Below, piece after piece: positions 19,107 to 53,562 of a DNA stretch of 64,000 nucleotides. Every line of letters begins with the position of its first letter. Within the stretch, counting starts at the first letter, position 1. Origin of the DNA: an uncultured Planktomarina sp. Its GTDB lineage: Bacteria > Pseudomonadota > Alphaproteobacteria > Rhodobacterales > Rhodobacteraceae. A program made the position numbers and the translations under genes. Location: the NCBI GenBank assembly GCA_943788425.1, contig CALSQF010000006.1, positions 434,001-498,000 of the forward strand, read 5' to 3'. The notes beneath the pieces are model-generated. The model ran no database searches and had not been told where the DNA came from. It worked only from the letters and a program-made list of their open reading frames with translations.

Positions 19107-21053
19107 TTACAGCAAATCCGGTGGTGTGGATTCGGTTTTGAGCGCCGCCACAAGTTGATCAAGTGCCACAACTTCACTATTTTTGCTGCCCAAGCGGCGC
19201 ATTGATAGGGTCCGGTCTGCAACCTCTTTCATCCCCACCGCGAGGATCACAGGTACTTTAGCTACGGAATGTTCGCGCACTTTGTAATTGATTTTTTCGT
19301 TGCGGGTGTCCGCTTCGGCCCGGACGCCTACAGCGCGCAAAGCCGCAACGGCCTCATACACAAATTCATCGGCGTCTGATACAATGGAAGCCACAACCAC
19401 CTGCCGCGGTGCCAGCCAAAGGGGCAAGCGCCCGGCATGTTCTTCGATCAATATCCCGATGAAACGCTCAAAAGACCCCAGGCAGGCGCGATGCAGCATG
19501 ACCGGCCTGTGCTTGTTGCCATCTTCGCCGATATAGCTGGCGTCTAAGCGCTCGGGCAGAACGAAATCCACCTGATGGGTGCCGCATTGCCAATCACGGC
19601 CAATGGCATCGGTCAAAACAAACTCCAATTTTGGACCGTAGAATGCACCTTCTCCGGGGTTCATTTCGGGTTCAATACCTGCCTTGCGGGTTGCGGCCAG
19701 AAGAGCGGTTTCCGCCCGATCCCAGACCTCATCAGAGCCGGAGCGCTTTTCTGGCCGATCACTGAATTTCACGCGGAAGGATTCAAAGCCAAGATCTTTA
19801 TATACAGAGGTTAGATAGGCGATATAGAGAGCGGTTTCTTCTTCGATTTGGTCTTCACGGCAGAAAATATGCCCGTCGTCTTGCGTAAAGCCGCGCACCC
19901 GCATGATGCCATGAAGTGCCCCTGACGGCTCGTAGCGCGCGCAGCTGCCAAATTCAGCCATGCGCAGCGGCAGATCTCGGTAGGATTTTAAGCCTTGGTT
20001 GAAAATCTGCACATGACAGGGGCAGTTCATCGGCTTGAGCGCATTAACGGCCTTTTCGCGGGCATGCTCCTCATCCACTTCGACGATGAACATATTCTCT
20101 TGATACTTGTCCCAATGGCCCGAGGCCACCCAGAGCTTGCGGTCCACTACCTGCGGGGTGTTGACCTCAACATAGCCGCCTGCGCGTTGTTTGCGGCGCA
20201 TGTAATCTTGGAGTTCGGTGTAGATGGCCCAGCCGTTTGGATGCCAAAAGACCTGTCCGGGTGCCTCTTCTTGCATATGGTACAAATCCATTTCGCGGCC
20301 CAGCTTGCGGTGGTCGCGTTTGGCGGCTTCTTCGAGCATATGCAGGTGAGCTTTGAGCTTTTCTTTGTTGGAAAATGCAACCCCATAGATCCGTTGCAAC
20401 ATCGCCCTATCGCTGTCGCCGCGCCAATAGGCGCCGGCCACATTCATCAATTTAAACCCATCTGCGGGCACTTGCCCTGTGTGTTGCAAATGTGGTCCAC
20501 GGCACAGATCTTGCCAGTCACCGTGCCAATACATTCGCAGCGGTTCGTCGCCAGGGATGGCGTCAATCAGCTCCACCTTATAGGGCTCTCCGGCGTCAGT
20601 ATAATGTTGCACCGCGCGCGCGCGATCCCAAACTTCGGTGCGGACTGCATCGCGCTTATTGATGATTTCCTTCATCTTTTTCTCAATCACGCCCAAGTCT
20701 TCTGGGGTGAAAGCCTCTTTGCGATCAAAGTCATAATACCAGCCGTCTTTGATCACCGGACCGATCGTCACCTGCACATCAGGCCAAATTTCCTGAACCG
20801 CACGGGCCATGATATGGGCCAAATCATGCCGGATCAGCTCATTGGCCTGAACCTCATCTTTCATGGTATGAATCGCGATCGTGGCGTCGGTCTCAATTGG
20901 CCAAGTCAGATCAAAATGGGCACCATTCACCGTTGCGGAAATGGCCTTCTTCGCTAAAGAACTGGCGATATCAGCAGCCACTTCGGCGGCGGTGATGCCG
21001 GCCTCATAATGGCGGATAGAATTGTCGGGAAGGGTGAGTGAGATTTGGGCCAT
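19107..21053 (-). CDS. thrS: threonyl-tRNA synthetase
   Basis: Charges tRNA-Thr and edits mischarged serine. 648 residues with the full domain order: TGS domain ([12 protein letters not shown] to about residue 65), editing domain with the [11 protein letters not shown] zinc-site histidines near residue 75 and YYDFD, the class II core with MNCPCHV (zinc cysteine) near residue 335, and the C-terminal anticodon-binding domain ([20 protein letters not shown]). The ATG at 21053 has AGGAG 8 bases upstream; a GTG three codons earlier is also possible. It is transcribed alone, divergently from the alpha/beta hydrolase gene. Confidence 0.97.
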
Positions 21054-48787: not shown

Positions 48788-49969
48788 ATGTCGGATAATA
48801 ACGGTGGACCTTGGGGCGGCGGCGGAAGCGGCGGCAATCGAGGCAACAAAGGCAATGGCGGTGGGAATGATCGGGGTCCAGACGGACCGCAAATCCCAGA
48901 AATTGACGAGTTGATGCGCAAAGGCCAAGAGCAATTGCGCGTGTTGATGGGAGGTAAAGGCAGCGGTGGCACCGGTGGTGGCAGTGGAGCTGGCGGTGGA
49001 GACGCAGGCATTCCGCGCAGCACTTTCGTGCTGGCTGGGCTTGCTGCTGTTGGCATGTGGCTGTTCGCGTCCTTTTATACCGTCAAGCCAGAGGAGCAAT
49101 CTGTTGAGCTCTTCCTCGGCGAATTCAATGAAATTGGCACCAACGGTCTCAATTTCGCGCCTTGGCCTTTTGTGACCTATGAGAAGTTCAATGTCACCAC
49201 CAACAGAACCGAATCCCTTGGGCTCAATGATAGCCGTGACAGTGGTTTGGGCTTGATGCTAACCACGGATGAAAACATCGTGGACATTGACTTTCAGGTG
49301 GTTTGGAACATTAAAAACTCGGCGGATTTTTTGTTTAGTCTGAAAGCACCTGAGCAATCTATCCGGGCTATTTCGGAAGCTGCGATGCGCGAAGTGATTG
49401 CGCAATCGGAATTGGCGCCAATTTTGAACCGAGATCGTGCTGCGATTGAGGCGAATGTGCGGCAATTGATCCAAAAAACTTTGGATGAGCGCAAAACTGG
49501 TATTTCTGTTGTCCGGGTCAACTTTAACAAAGTGGATCCGCCCAGCCGTCAGGTGATCGTGACCGCTGCTGATGGGTCGCAAAAACGCGTTTCGGTGATT
49601 GACGCCTTCCGCGATGTGCAAGCCGCAGAGCAAGAGCGCGATCAGCGCGAGCGCCAAGCGGATGCCTATGCCAACCAACGTCTTGCTGAAGCGCGGGGTG
49701 CTGCGGCGCAGTTGTTAGAGGCAGCAGAAGGCTACCGTGCCTCTGTCGTAAATGCCGCTTTGGGGGAGGCCAGCCAATTCTCAGCTGTTTTGACCGAATA
49801 TAAAGAAGCGCCAGAGGTGACGCGTCGTCGCCTATATATCGAGACTTTGGAAAAAGTGTTGAGCAATGTGGATAAGATTATCATGGACAATGGCGAAGGC
49901 GGCCAGGGTGTTGTACCTTACTTGCCATTGAATGAATTGCGTAAATCTTCACAAGGAGGGTCAAACTAA
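48788..49969 (+). CDS. hflK: FtsH protease modulator HflK
   Basis: 393-residue SPFH/band-7 protein that, with HflC, encloses the membrane protease FtsH. A long glycine-rich, cytoplasmic N-terminus (residues 5-75) precedes one membrane helix (STFVLAGLAAVGMWLFASFYTV), then the band-7 domain (FNVTTNRTESL, MLTTDENIVDIDFQVVWNIK) and a coiled-coil tail (QERDQRERQADAYANQRLAEARGAA split). AAGGGAAA precedes the ATG. Its stop overlaps the hflC start as TAATG. Confidence 0.95.
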   Translation: MSDNNGGPWGGGGSGGNRGNKGNGGGNDRGPDGPQIPEIDELMRKGQEQLRVLMGGKGSGGTGGGSGAGGGDAGIPRSTFVLAGLAAVGMWLFASFYTVKPEEQSVELFLGEFNEIGTNGLNFAPWPFVTYEKFNVTTNRTESLGLNDSRDSGLGLMLTTDENIVDIDFQVVWNIKNSADFLFSLKAPEQSIRAISEAAMREVIAQSELAPILNRDRAAIEANVRQLIQKTLDERKTGISVVRVNFNKVDPPSRQVIVTAADGSQKRVSVIDAFRDVQAAEQERDQRERQADAYANQRLAEARGAAAQLLEAAEGYRASVVNAALGEASQFSAVLTEYKEAPEVTRRRLYIETLEKVLSNVDKIIMDNGEGGQGVVPYLPLNELRKSSQGGSN

Positions 49970-50856
49970 TGTCTATGAGATCTCGTATTGCAGTGATCAT
50001 AGCCGCCGTGATTGCGGTTGGTGGGTTGATGTCCTTGTTCATCGTGGATGAGCGCGAAAAAGTGCTAGTGCTGCGGTTTGGTCAAATCAAACAGGTCAAA
50101 ACAGACCCTGGTTTGGGCTTTAAGATCCCTTGGCTGGATCAAGTTGTACGCTTTGATGACCGAATTTTGTCTTTGGAAACCCCGGTGATCGAGGTGACGC
50201 CAGCTGATGACCGTCGCCTCGAGGTGGATGCCTTTGTTATGTACCGCATCGCAGATATTGTGAAATTCCGTCAGGCTTTGGGCGCGGGCGGTGAGCGCGA
50301 AGCCAGTATTCAGCTCAATGATATTCTCGACGGTCAGATCCGGGCGGTTCTTGGAGCTGATGGGGTGACGTCAAATGCCATTCTGTCGCCGGAACGGTCC
50401 CGTTTGATGGAGCTGATCCGTGCTGAGGCTCAAACCCGTGCTAAGGATTTGGGGTTGGATGTAGTTGATGTGCGTCTGCGTCAAACCAACTTGCCAGAGC
50501 AAAACTTCGATGCAACTTTGCAGCGTATGATCGCAGAGCGGGAACGCGAAGCGACCGATGAACGCGCCCGGGGCCGTGAGGCGGCGCAGCGAGTCACAGC
50601 TGTTGCGGATCGGACCCATGAGGAAACGCTCTCCGCTGCGAAGCGGGATGCTTTGATCATCGAAGGGGAAGCGGATGCGGAACGGACCCGTATTTTGGCC
50701 GATGCCTTCGGCGCGGATCCTGAATTTTTCGACTTCTATCGGTCGCTTGCGGCCTATGAATCTTCCATACTTGGTGAAAATTCAACTTTGGTGATTCCAC
50801 CAGATCATGAATTTTTAACCTATATGAAATCCGCAACGCCGCGTGTTGCTGAGTGA
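49969..50856 (+). CDS. hflC: FtsH protease modulator HflC
   Basis: 295-residue partner of HflK. One N-terminal membrane helix (IAVIIAAVIAVGGLMSLFIV), the SPFH segment KVLVLRFGQIKQVKTDPGLGFKIPW and EVDAFVMYRIADIVKFRQALG, then a helical tail rich in Arg/Glu/Ala. AGGAGG lies just ahead of the ATG within the end of hflK. Its TGA overlaps the next gene as GTGA. Confidence 0.95.
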   Translation: MSMRSRIAVIIAAVIAVGGLMSLFIVDEREKVLVLRFGQIKQVKTDPGLGFKIPWLDQVVRFDDRILSLETPVIEVTPADDRRLEVDAFVMYRIADIVKFRQALGAGGEREASIQLNDILDGQIRAVLGADGVTSNAILSPERSRLMELIRAEAQTRAKDLGLDVVDVRLRQTNLPEQNFDATLQRMIAEREREATDERARGREAAQRVTAVADRTHEETLSAAKRDALIIEGEADAERTRILADAFGADPEFFDFYRSLAAYESSILGENSTLVIPPDHEFLTYMKSATPRVAE

Positions 50857-51038: not shown

Positions 51039-51205
51039 GCGGCCCGGCGTTCGAAATAAGTGTTTTTCCGCCGAAATTGGCCGTCACGAGATGGTGACTG
51101 AGCCTGGCAGGTCATTGCGTTGAAAACTTGCCGAACTACATTAAGTTAATAAAGACAACAGGCGCCCAATCTACGTGATGTAGATGGGCATGAATGGAGA
51201 TAAAG

Positions 51206-52681
51206 ATGAATTCGATTGCCTTATCTAAGCGCAAGGATTTTGCAGTTTACCGTGCCACTTGGGTTTTTGCGGCGGCGCTTTGTCTGCTGATCTTACAAGC
51301 TCTACAGGCCGCAGCTCAAATGCTGCCAAATACATTTGCCGATCTTGCCGATGAGATCAGCCCCTCCGTGGTGAATATCACCACAACAACCGTGATTGCC
51401 GGTCGCGCCGATCAAATGCCGCGTGGTATTGTGCCCAAGGGCTCGCCTTTTGAAGAGTTCTTTCGGGAGTTCGAAGATCGTCGCCGTGGCGGCAATGGTG
51501 GGGCCAGCCGCTCCTCTGCATTGGGATCGGGGTTTGTGATCTCTGCTGATGGATTCATCGTCACCAACAATCACGTGATCGAAGGGGCCGATGAGATTGA
51601 AGTAGAATTTTTCTCCGGTGAAAGACTGGCCGCTAAGGTCATCGGCACCGATAAGAATACGGATATCGCAGTGCTGAAGGTCACGTCGGATGCACCGCTG
51701 CCTTTCGTCAGTTTCGGCGACAGTGACACAGCGCGCGTGGGCGATTGGGTGGTGGCGATGGGCAATCCTTTGGGACAGGGGTTCTCGGTCTCTGCGGGAA
51801 TCGTTTCGGCCCGAAACCGGGCATTGTCTGGGATTTATGACGACTATATTCAAACGGATGCCGCAATTAACCGGGGCAATTCTGGCGGGCCTTTGTTCAA
51901 TCTGGATGGAGAAGTTGTCGGTGTGAACACCGCGATTTTGTCGCCCAATGGCGGCTCTATCGGCATTGGCTTTTCTATGGCCTCTAATGTGGTCAGCCGG
52001 GTCGTTGATCAATTGACGGAATACGGCGAAATTCGCCGGGGCTGGCTGGGCGTGCGGATCCAAGATGTTGATGAAGACATTGCCGAAAGCATTGACGGTT
52101 TGGACCGGGCCGCCGGGGCCGTTGTGACAGGCGTGCCAGAAGGCCCCTCGAAAGATGCCGGAATATTACAGGGCGATGTGATCGTGATCTTTGATGGTCA
52201 TGAGGTCGAGGACGTGCGCGATTTGGTGCAAACTGTCGGCAACACAGAAGTTGGCAAAGCGGTTGATGTGGTTGTGGTGCGCGATGGTGCGCAGGTGACA
52301 TTGAGCGTCACCCTTGGCCTGCGCGACGACGAAAAACTGGCCCGCGCAGATGAGCCAGCGGTCAATGAAGATGCGCCAAAAGACTATGAGGACCTTGGGA
52401 TCACCCTGTCCAACCTGACCGATGAAATTCGTGAGGGTTTGGACCTTGCGGCTGGATTGGAAGGCGTTGTCGTTGTGGATGTTGTGGAAACCTCCGAGGC
52501 CTTTGAAAAAGGTTTGAAATCAGGGGATGTGATTGTGGAGGCCGGCCAAGAGAAGGTCACCTCACTTGCTGAGTTTGAAGAGCAAGTGAGCGCGACCATT
52601 GAGAGCGGCCGTAAAACGATGCTTTTGCTCGTGCGCCGCGGCGGCGATCCCCGGTTTTTGGCCCTCACTGTACAGCAATAA
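51206..52681 (+). CDS. degP: Do-family periplasmic serine protease (DegP/MucD type)
   Basis: Envelope protein quality-control protease. 491 residues from ATG 51206 (GGAG 7 bases before). N-terminal signal segment (TWVFAAALCLLILQALQAAAQ), trypsin-like domain with catalytic H123 (TNNHVIEGADE), D153 (NTDIAVLKV) and S226 (RGNSGGPLF), then two PDZ domains (from about residues 270 and 395). Follows hflKC-DUF2065 after 167 bases. The intervening sequence contains TTGAAA-type boxes, so it may have its own promoter. Family proteins are often heat- or envelope-stress induced. Confidence 0.96.
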   Translation: MNSIALSKRKDFAVYRATWVFAAALCLLILQALQAAAQMLPNTFADLADEISPSVVNITTTTVIAGRADQMPRGIVPKGSPFEEFFREFEDRRRGGNGGASRSSALGSGFVISADGFIVTNNHVIEGADEIEVEFFSGERLAAKVIGTDKNTDIAVLKVTSDAPLPFVSFGDSDTARVGDWVVAMGNPLGQGFSVSAGIVSARNRALSGIYDDYIQTDAAINRGNSGGPLFNLDGEVVGVNTAILSPNGGSIGIGFSMASNVVSRVVDQLTEYGEIRRGWLGVRIQDVDEDIAESIDGLDRAAGAVVTGVPEGPSKDAGILQGDVIVIFDGHEVEDVRDLVQTVGNTEVGKAVDVVVVRDGAQVTLSVTLGLRDDEKLARADEPAVNEDAPKDYEDLGITLSNLTDEIREGLDLAAGLEGVVVVDVVETSEAFEKGLKSGDVIVEAGQEKVTSLAEFEEQVSATIESGRKTMLLLVRRGGDPRFLALTVQQ

Positions 52682-52701
52682 ATGCAGCGGTACGGTGGTG
52701 A

Positions 52702-52729
52702 AAGGGGCGGCTCTAGGGCCGCCCTTTTT
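52702..52729 (+). terminator. rho-independent terminator after degP
   Basis: GGGCGGC (52705-52711) pairs with GCCGCCC (52718-52724) with a 6-base loop; A-rich sequence precedes and TTTTT follows. It sits 23 bases after the degP stop and is a textbook intrinsic terminator, ending the gor-hflKC-degP group. Confidence 0.92.
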
Positions 52730-52742
52730 GGGTTCAGCGCGG

Positions 52743-53117
52743 TTATGGCTGCTCGGTGGCGCGGCTGGCCTCTGGCAGCAAGAGATCATCCAGCATGAAA
52801 GATATATCTTCCACATGCTCAGCGATCACATGGCACACAGCGCCTTCGCGTTGAATGCGCCCTGTGATTCGCAACATACGCCCCGCGATTACGGCGCGGC
52901 GGTACTGCTCATAGAGTTTGCGCCAGACGATCACATTGCAAACTCCGGTCTCATCCTCCAGCGTGATGAAAATGACTCCATTGGCCGTGCCGGGTCTTTG
53001 GCGCACCAGGACCAGACCCGCCACAGTAACCCTTGCACCATTTGGTGGCAGCTCCAGCATAGCATGGGGCAGGGCGGCGGGGGGCTTGGGCCAAGTGTTG
53101 GGAGAGTCGAATGACAT
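52743..53117 (-). pseudogene. DnaE2 C-terminal OB-fold remnant behind a LexA box
   Basis: About 124 codons. From [16 protein letters not shown] onward (near residue 28) it reads as the C-terminal OB-fold of the error-prone polymerase DnaE2: [19 protein letters not shown], then [20 protein letters not shown] and [11 protein letters not shown]. The roughly 900 residues that carry polymerase, PHP and thumb domains are absent, and no imuA or imuB is adjacent. The ATG at 53117 lies two bases from a GTTC-N7-GTTC LexA box; an ATG at 53135 overlaps the box. Most likely a deletion joined the SOS promoter of an imuA-imuB-dnaE2 cassette to the end of dnaE2. A functional stand-alone OB protein is the alternative. 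Confidence 0.82.
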
Positions 53118-53118
53118 A

Positions 53119-53133
53119 GAACAAAAATAGAAC
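53119..53133 (-). promoter_or_regulatory. LexA (SOS) box, alphaproteobacterial type
   Basis: On the minus strand GTTC-TATTTTT-GTTC, an exact GTTC-N7-GTTC, the consensus established for LexA of Rhodobacter and other alphaproteobacteria. It sits directly before the DnaE2 remnant, and about 105 bases before the divergent ferredoxin gene. An exact match in this place is strong evidence, since imuA-imuB-dnaE2 cassettes are classic LexA targets. Whether it still controls transcription is unknown. Confidence 0.82.
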
Positions 53134-53181
53134 ATTTGAGCAATATCGCAAGTGGCATTATTCCACCCTCATGGGGGGTAG

Positions 53182-53562
<381 letters not shown>

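Follow-up and report, generated by a model that had tools for sequence, protein, structure and literature searches.

In over a hundred related bacteria, the OB domain of the error-prone DNA polymerase DnaE2 is encoded by a gene of its own, usually far off in the genome from the polymerase core. The window analysed here, a 64-kb stretch of DNA, holds one such gene on its reverse strand (positions 52743–53117, stop codon included), which encodes a standalone DnaE2 OB-domain protein of 124 amino acids identified by the PRK05672 and PF01336 models, its orthologues in the family and an AlphaFold2 model. We consider it likely, from comparison of the sequences, that DnaE2 has undergone fission and that its OB domain has become a separate SOS-regulated subunit, which would act in trans with the separately encoded core.

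A standalone OB-domain protein

The start codon that follows the operator, ATG 53117, opens a frame of 124 codons that ends at 52743, in agreement with the length originally predicted; the same reverse-strand frame is already open from ATG 53135. Homology to the C-terminal end of DnaE2, which had been claimed from the letters alone, is borne out by the model searches. The NCBIfam model PRK05672 (error-prone DNA polymerase) matches the 124-aa protein over its positions 948–1039 of 1047 (E 1.2e-30; the best DnaE1-type model reaches E 6.4e-9), so that the best family is the DnaE2 C-terminal end, with homology confined to the last ~92 positions, the OB fold. The score falls below the model's whole-protein cut-off because the protein is a fragment of the model length; the Pfam OB-fold model PF01336 is matched above its gathering score (E 7.1e-12). 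The AlphaFold2 model displays an OB fold (mean pLDDT 87.6) whose nearest folds in the PDB are the OB domains of AspRS, CST and RPA. A sequence search with the OB profile for relatives of solved structure returned none at E 0.01.

Alignment of standalone and fused forms reveals invariant OB core residues common to both. About 20–55 residues precede the OB domain in the standalone proteins, and an N-terminal W-P-x-P-P segment is present in standalone forms and absent from fused ones: of 46 standalone rows, 41 have W9, all have P12 and 44 have P13, and all 10 fused rows lack W9. W9 is also absent from the linker of the fused protein of genome G276, and the proteins of G237 and of four small genomes (G033, G090, G172 and G281) lack the whole segment. 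The standalone OB protein of locus L159 (G083:C42) carries a long low-complexity stretch between its W-P-R-P-P segment and the OB core, and the 300 nt that precede its matched OB stretch contain no exact LexA box.

The gene lies between a divergent 2Fe-2S ferredoxin gene (53239–53562, forward strand; PF00111, E 2.2e-12) and a convergent gene for a DegP/Do-type serine protease (51194–52681, forward strand). Upstream of degP are two genes that we take to be hflK (48788–49969) and hflC (49969–50856). These neighbours are context, the ferredoxin gene lying outside the system. At 50 of the 62 named standalone loci the divergent ferredoxin gene lies no more than 1 kb from the OB gene, and degP and hflC are found within 6.5 kb at 39 and 35 of them, respectively; ferredoxin or degP is nearby at 57 of the 62, several loci stopping at contig ends.

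A LexA box directly before the gene

An exact LexA box of the form GTTC-N7-GTTC, GTTCTATTTTTGTTC, occupies positions 53119–53133 of the reverse strand and ends 1 nt before ATG 53117, directly before the gene as the original prediction stated. It is the conservation of this position at orthologues, not the count in the window, that places the box beyond chance. Indeed, the 64-kb window holds two exact boxes against 1.59 expected from shuffles, and the second (19659–19673), inside a 651-codon open reading frame (ORF) that is presumably a threonyl-tRNA synthetase gene, is probably a chance occurrence. Among the 30 best-scoring loci, which are the window's own (L001) and L004–L032, chosen by score and not drawn at random, 28 have an exact box upstream of the orthologous ORF. 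The 80 named loci, likewise the best-scoring and no random draw, come from Planktomarina, Silicimonas, Palleronia, Rhodovulum, Gemmobacter, Ruegeria, Roseovarius, Marivita and others. The exact box is kept at 58 of the 62 standalone loci among them and is missing at L081, L085, L094 and L097; this count omits the fused loci, the fused fragment at L099 and L093, which stands at a contig end, and takes in L094, which has a long frame, as standalone. In 51 of the 58 boxed loci the gap from the box to the next in-frame start is 1–3 nt, and a box still stands upstream of the OB gene in the four AT-rich streamlined genomes G033, G090, G172 and G281.

At most standalone loci the operator spacer reads T-A-(T/C)-N-T-T-T, and this conservation suggests a possible −10 element, TATTTT, inside the operator of the window's gene (53124–53129, reverse strand). 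The operator could thus hold the −10 element, in which case the mRNA would be nearly leaderless. A scan of positions 52600–53300 with the sigma-70 consensus found no promoter.

The 2.54 Mb of the window's genome (G000) contain 44 exact boxes, the reversed pattern giving 105 matches. Four of these boxes lie 16 nt before the start of an imuA-like ORF, 13 nt before that of imuB, 30 nt before that of the dnaE2 core (taken as the MSCSD methionine) and 1 nt before that of the OB gene; at this density, the chance that any one start has a box no more than 60 nt away is ~0.001. The OB gene is probably induced by DNA damage, presumably through LexA.

The remainder of DnaE2 and its partners

The original prediction supposed that imuA, imuB and most of dnaE2 had been lost, which is contradicted by the rest of the genome. 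With the plasmid-borne DnaE2 of D. shibae as query (1116 aa, fused, from a cassette of the imuA-imuB-dnaE2 type), G000 and the complete genome of the same genus, G045, each yield an open OB-less core that matches query residues 3–977 (58–59%), in addition to a DnaE1-type polymerase (33–34% to the same query). The standalone ORF in both genomes covers query residues 972 to 1081–1082. Pfam detects polymerase, finger and HHH domains and no OB domain in the core, compared with PHP, polymerase, finger, HHH and OB domains in fused DnaE2; the PDIDVDF motif is retained in the core. At the core loci inspected, the protein ends soon after a conserved stretch of the HPxALLRxxLTP type, with a variable tail of 0 to about 80 residues beyond it, and the OB protein begins inside the former linker of the fused DnaE2.

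ImuB of G000 is a 551-aa Y-family ORF with PF00817 that matches, at 40% and over the full length, the ImuB encoded at the imuA-imuB-dnaE2 locus in G092, where dnaE2 is fused. Its gene (C18, L116:5697–7352) is solitary, has its own LexA box and adjoins what we assume to be a phosphoglycerate-mutase-like ORF. The imuA-like ORF encodes 208 aa and matches NF033429 at E 6.5e-9, with 36.4 bits against a cut-off of 150, and the model also matches RecA. Hits of NF033429 extend to each of the 80 genomes tested, for which RecA is evidently responsible, and to 10 of 14 control genomes; none of them exceeds the cut-off. A second match is found in 72 of the 80; the eight with a single match comprise six genomes without DnaE2, G196 (64% complete) and G237. 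No contiguous cassette with an OB-containing DnaE2 is found in G000: the imuA-like ORF lies on contig C3, imuB on C18, and the core and OB genes on C6, 372 kb apart. A full imuA-imuB-dnaE2 elsewhere in the genome had been named as a finding that would weaken the loss scenario, and this holds in part: the dnaE2 core, imuB and the imuA-like ORF are present and boxed, but they are scattered over several loci and dnaE2 is without exactly the OB domain.

Selection and co-divergence

In the closest pairs, the pattern of substitutions shows the OB gene to be under purifying selection. The genes of the window and G045 differ by five synonymous and no non-synonymous changes, their proteins being identical; the L088–L089 pair differs by 26 synonymous and three non-synonymous changes, and the pair of the window and L033 has a dN/dS of 0.07. 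Many deeper pairs saturate or scatter, and several GC-rich pairs give dN/dS values of 0.2–0.6 for which dS is unreliable.

Pairwise divergences were compared over 20–32 split genomes, selected by the presence of the neighbour gene (DegP or ferredoxin). Controlled for this neighbour of the OB gene, OB divergence correlates with that of the unlinked core (partial r 0.46–0.65, permutation p 0.001 in 12 of 12 settings, which include runs without the fast-evolving G136), and the correlation of OB with neighbour, given the core, ranges from −0.03 to 0.20. That of core with neighbour, given OB, is 0.29–0.67, so that the co-divergence may in part reflect the core being a longer and better-measured gene. 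HflC as control gene gave a partial r of 0.88 over 16 genomes with partial alignments, and was omitted from the robustness runs. On these comparisons, the divergence of the OB gene appears to follow that of the core better than that of its own neighbours.

Distribution of split and fused DnaE2

An OB-query match at E 1e-6 is present in 256 of 295 genomes of the same family. Among the rows listed, standalone ORFs are 62–80% identical to the window protein (that of G045 being identical), compared with about 44–66% for the C-termini of full-length DnaE2 and 39–46% for the four AT-rich small genomes G033, G090, G172 and G281. The 295 genomes fall into 124 split (an OB-less core and a standalone OB, no fused OB found), 127 fused only, three with both forms, one with OB alone, six with an OB-less core alone and 34 with neither, counts that are not independent because the genomes, nearly all from different genera, share common ancestry. 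The split class takes in G158, G068, G061 and G118, whose core lies in contig-end pieces, as well as G194 and the four divergent small genomes. Frames, contig ends and tails placed G021, G091, G095, G273, G233 and G178 as fused or fused-type fragments (G021, G091, G095 and G273 being fragments within the fused-only class), and frame length alone placed G022, G078, G119, G155 and G227 (frames of 379–876) as fused; G211, with a 49-residue remnant match, was counted as neither.

Both forms occur in G035 (D. shibae), G292 and G237. D. shibae has the cassette of plasmid pDSHI03 (L115) plus a split pair on its chromosome; on the plasmid, a gene for an SOS response-associated peptidase (SRAP) directly precedes imuA-imuB-dnaE2. 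The OB-less cores without any OB match are those of G180, G162, G044, G064, G098 and G142. The contig stops just past degP in G180 and within degP in G162, so the OB gene may fall in the gap; nothing OB-like is found beside degP in G044 and G064, and G098 and G142 are 84% complete. The one genome with OB alone, G051, is rated 100% complete. It keeps a LexA-boxed OB gene at the degP locus (L163, C4:2079500–2088000) and has an ImuA-like match; the only polymerase found in this genome by the search is of the DnaE1 type, with no DnaE2. G237 (L164, L165) keeps a boxed standalone OB gene and pieces of a split-type core, along with another, full-length DnaE2. These two genomes indicate that the OB gene can outlast the core, which calls for caution on action in trans.

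In an even draw across the class, a match is present in 129 of 289 genomes; of these, 125 lie outside the family, nearly all with the match in a frame of at least 1000 codons. Shorter OB-matching frames outside the family occur in G476, G364, G488, G521, G353, G452, G392, G338 and G538, several near contig starts. The frame of G338 (G338:C114:3734–4027), from another family of the class, has 129 codons and is possibly an independent split or a broken gene. A newly created SOS-inducible single OB-fold protein had been put forward as one of two alternatives for the gene; SOS control and the single OB fold agree with this description, but the protein is neither new nor local, being spread through the family.

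Origin of the split

Genome G276 has a full-length fused dnaE2 beside hflKC, convergent with degP. Its linker and OB domain resemble the standalone type, and its DnaE2 tail is slightly altered, HPRAQARRLFPAREFR versus HPREQAKxLFPSRDFH; tails of the HPREQAKxLFPSRDFH type are absent from the aligned standalone proteins. A fused gene at hflKC–degP is consistent with an ancestral one at this site whose 3′ end was left behind, and the G276 gene would fit the ancestral state, or could have been fused anew. Because of this gene, it is plausible that a 5′ deletion, such as the original prediction invoked, brought an SOS promoter up to the 3′ end of dnaE2, but the cassette is not lost. In G194 (L155, C12:3500–12500), the core is followed by an inverted unrelated ORF and then by an OB gene with the old tail, the two genes lying 1.2 kb apart with one LexA box each; this arrangement is possibly an intermediate or a separate fission.

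A single origin of all OB-less cores was rejected (p-AU 0.0002, 20 split versus 17 fused rows), G194 being the misfit, in a 37-row core tree run from which the fused copy of G292 was excluded. When G194 is removed, the best tree has the other 19 split rows all on one side, but support for this is negligible (1.3); removal of G083 and G162 as well leaves 17, which come together with a support of 100. A larger core tree (57 of 70 core rows) brings nearly all split cores together, with starred branches that force at least three changes and the fused copy of G292 on a long branch inside the split clade. The OB tree (89 columns) is little resolved. With G194 excluded from a single split group, either fission of DnaE2 would have happened more than once or genes would have been exchanged.

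Discussion

According to the reading that we prefer, fission of DnaE2 into a core and an OB subunit acting in trans, an ancestral full-length dnaE2 would have lain beside hflKC–degP; its 3′ end would have stayed there under a LexA promoter, and its body would have come to be encoded elsewhere. DNA damage would, through RecA and the cleavage of LexA, induce the ImuA-like protein, ImuB, the core and the OB protein together. The latter would bind the template single strand and would dock in trans with the polymerase body, or else with ImuB, and this docking would restore the full DnaE2 architecture for error-prone synthesis in SOS mutagenesis. Two open, boxed frames that co-occur and co-diverge are what is read directly from the genomes, and from them we infer the induction and the assembly in trans. 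We incline slightly to the further view that DnaE2 in much of the family is a two-subunit enzyme whose LexA-controlled, template-binding OB protein is supplied in trans. Against fission with action in trans stand the OB gene of G051 without DnaE2, the cores of G044 and G064 without OB and a core tree without one clean origin. The published M. tuberculosis model, as far as the available text of its source describes it, places the ImuB contacts in PHP and (HhH)2 and not in OB (PMC12926913), which also counts against this reading.

An alternative is a different role, in which the OB protein, induced by SOS, would bind single strands on its own or would work with ImuB, DnaE1 or RecA, and the DnaE2 body would work OB-less. 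G051 has the OB gene, its box and an ImuA-like match without DnaE2, the W-P-x-P-P segment occurs only in standalone forms, and C-family polymerases without OB are on record in the accessible part of a 2014 survey (PMC3919608). An independent role nevertheless appears rather unlikely to us: with the exception of G051, all genomes with a standalone OB among the 295 have a DnaE2 core, its contig-end pieces or a remnant, and OB divergence follows the core. The protein corresponds to the end of a larger one, which would also be true of a decaying relic of a mutagenesis cassette since lost, one of the two outcomes that the original prediction offered. Such decay is highly improbable given a frame, start and operator kept across the family, five synonymous and no non-synonymous differences from G045, and the presence of core, ImuB and ImuA-like ORF in the same genome. 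Cyanobacterial DnaE, a split-intein protein, is likewise a C-family polymerase made from two genes; here, in contrast, inspection reveals no sign of an intein, the break point is another and the enzyme is an SOS polymerase, not a replicase. Usual intein halves are longer than both the core tail (0 to ~80 residues) and the OB leader (~20–55), leaving no room for them. Splicing of core and OB halves after translation by a split intein, for which the cyanobacterial enzyme is the precedent in the survey text available (PMC3919608), can be virtually dismissed, both termini being too short by inspection.

Fission with an OB subunit acting in trans, the reading that we prefer, may be set beside the systems known. 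The available text of one report describes a plasmid imuA-imuB-dnaE2 cassette in D. shibae (PMC9426580). The G000 genes share with this fused mutasome of pDSHI03 the DnaE2 polymerase, ImuB, a candidate ImuA-like ORF and LexA boxes, and the OB domains are homologous and alignable, with the invariant core residues intact; unlike the cassette, they are spread over at least four loci, with OB as a separate gene under its own LexA box. The 2014 survey of C-family polymerases, in its accessible part, records an OB domain in at least 97% of them and several DnaE2s without one (PMC3919608). The latter probably have the same kind of polymerase body as the cores described here, but a separate OB gene is not mentioned in that part of the survey. 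In the available portion of a 2026 survey, a standalone ImuB-C with inactive PolY is described as split ImuB (PMC12926913). There, too, a mutasome component is divided into separate proteins, but the component is ImuB rather than DnaE2 and the lineages are others; the same portion does not remark on a split DnaE2. The literature searched, as far as its text was accessible, yielded no separate DnaE2 OB gene in print.

The OB piece missing from OB-less DnaE2s is found as a LexA-boxed separate gene in 124 of 295 genomes of the family. This would be an example of a DNA polymerase gene divided by fission, and in one relative, G276, a fused gene persists next to the same neighbours. Owing to this natural separation, what the OB domain contributes to error-prone synthesis can be addressed through one small gene. 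If the proposed fission and action in trans are true, DnaE2 in these bacteria would be a bacterial C-family polymerase that is split by nature and needs no intein to work, and the level of SOS mutagenesis could depend on how much of the small OB subunit is supplied.
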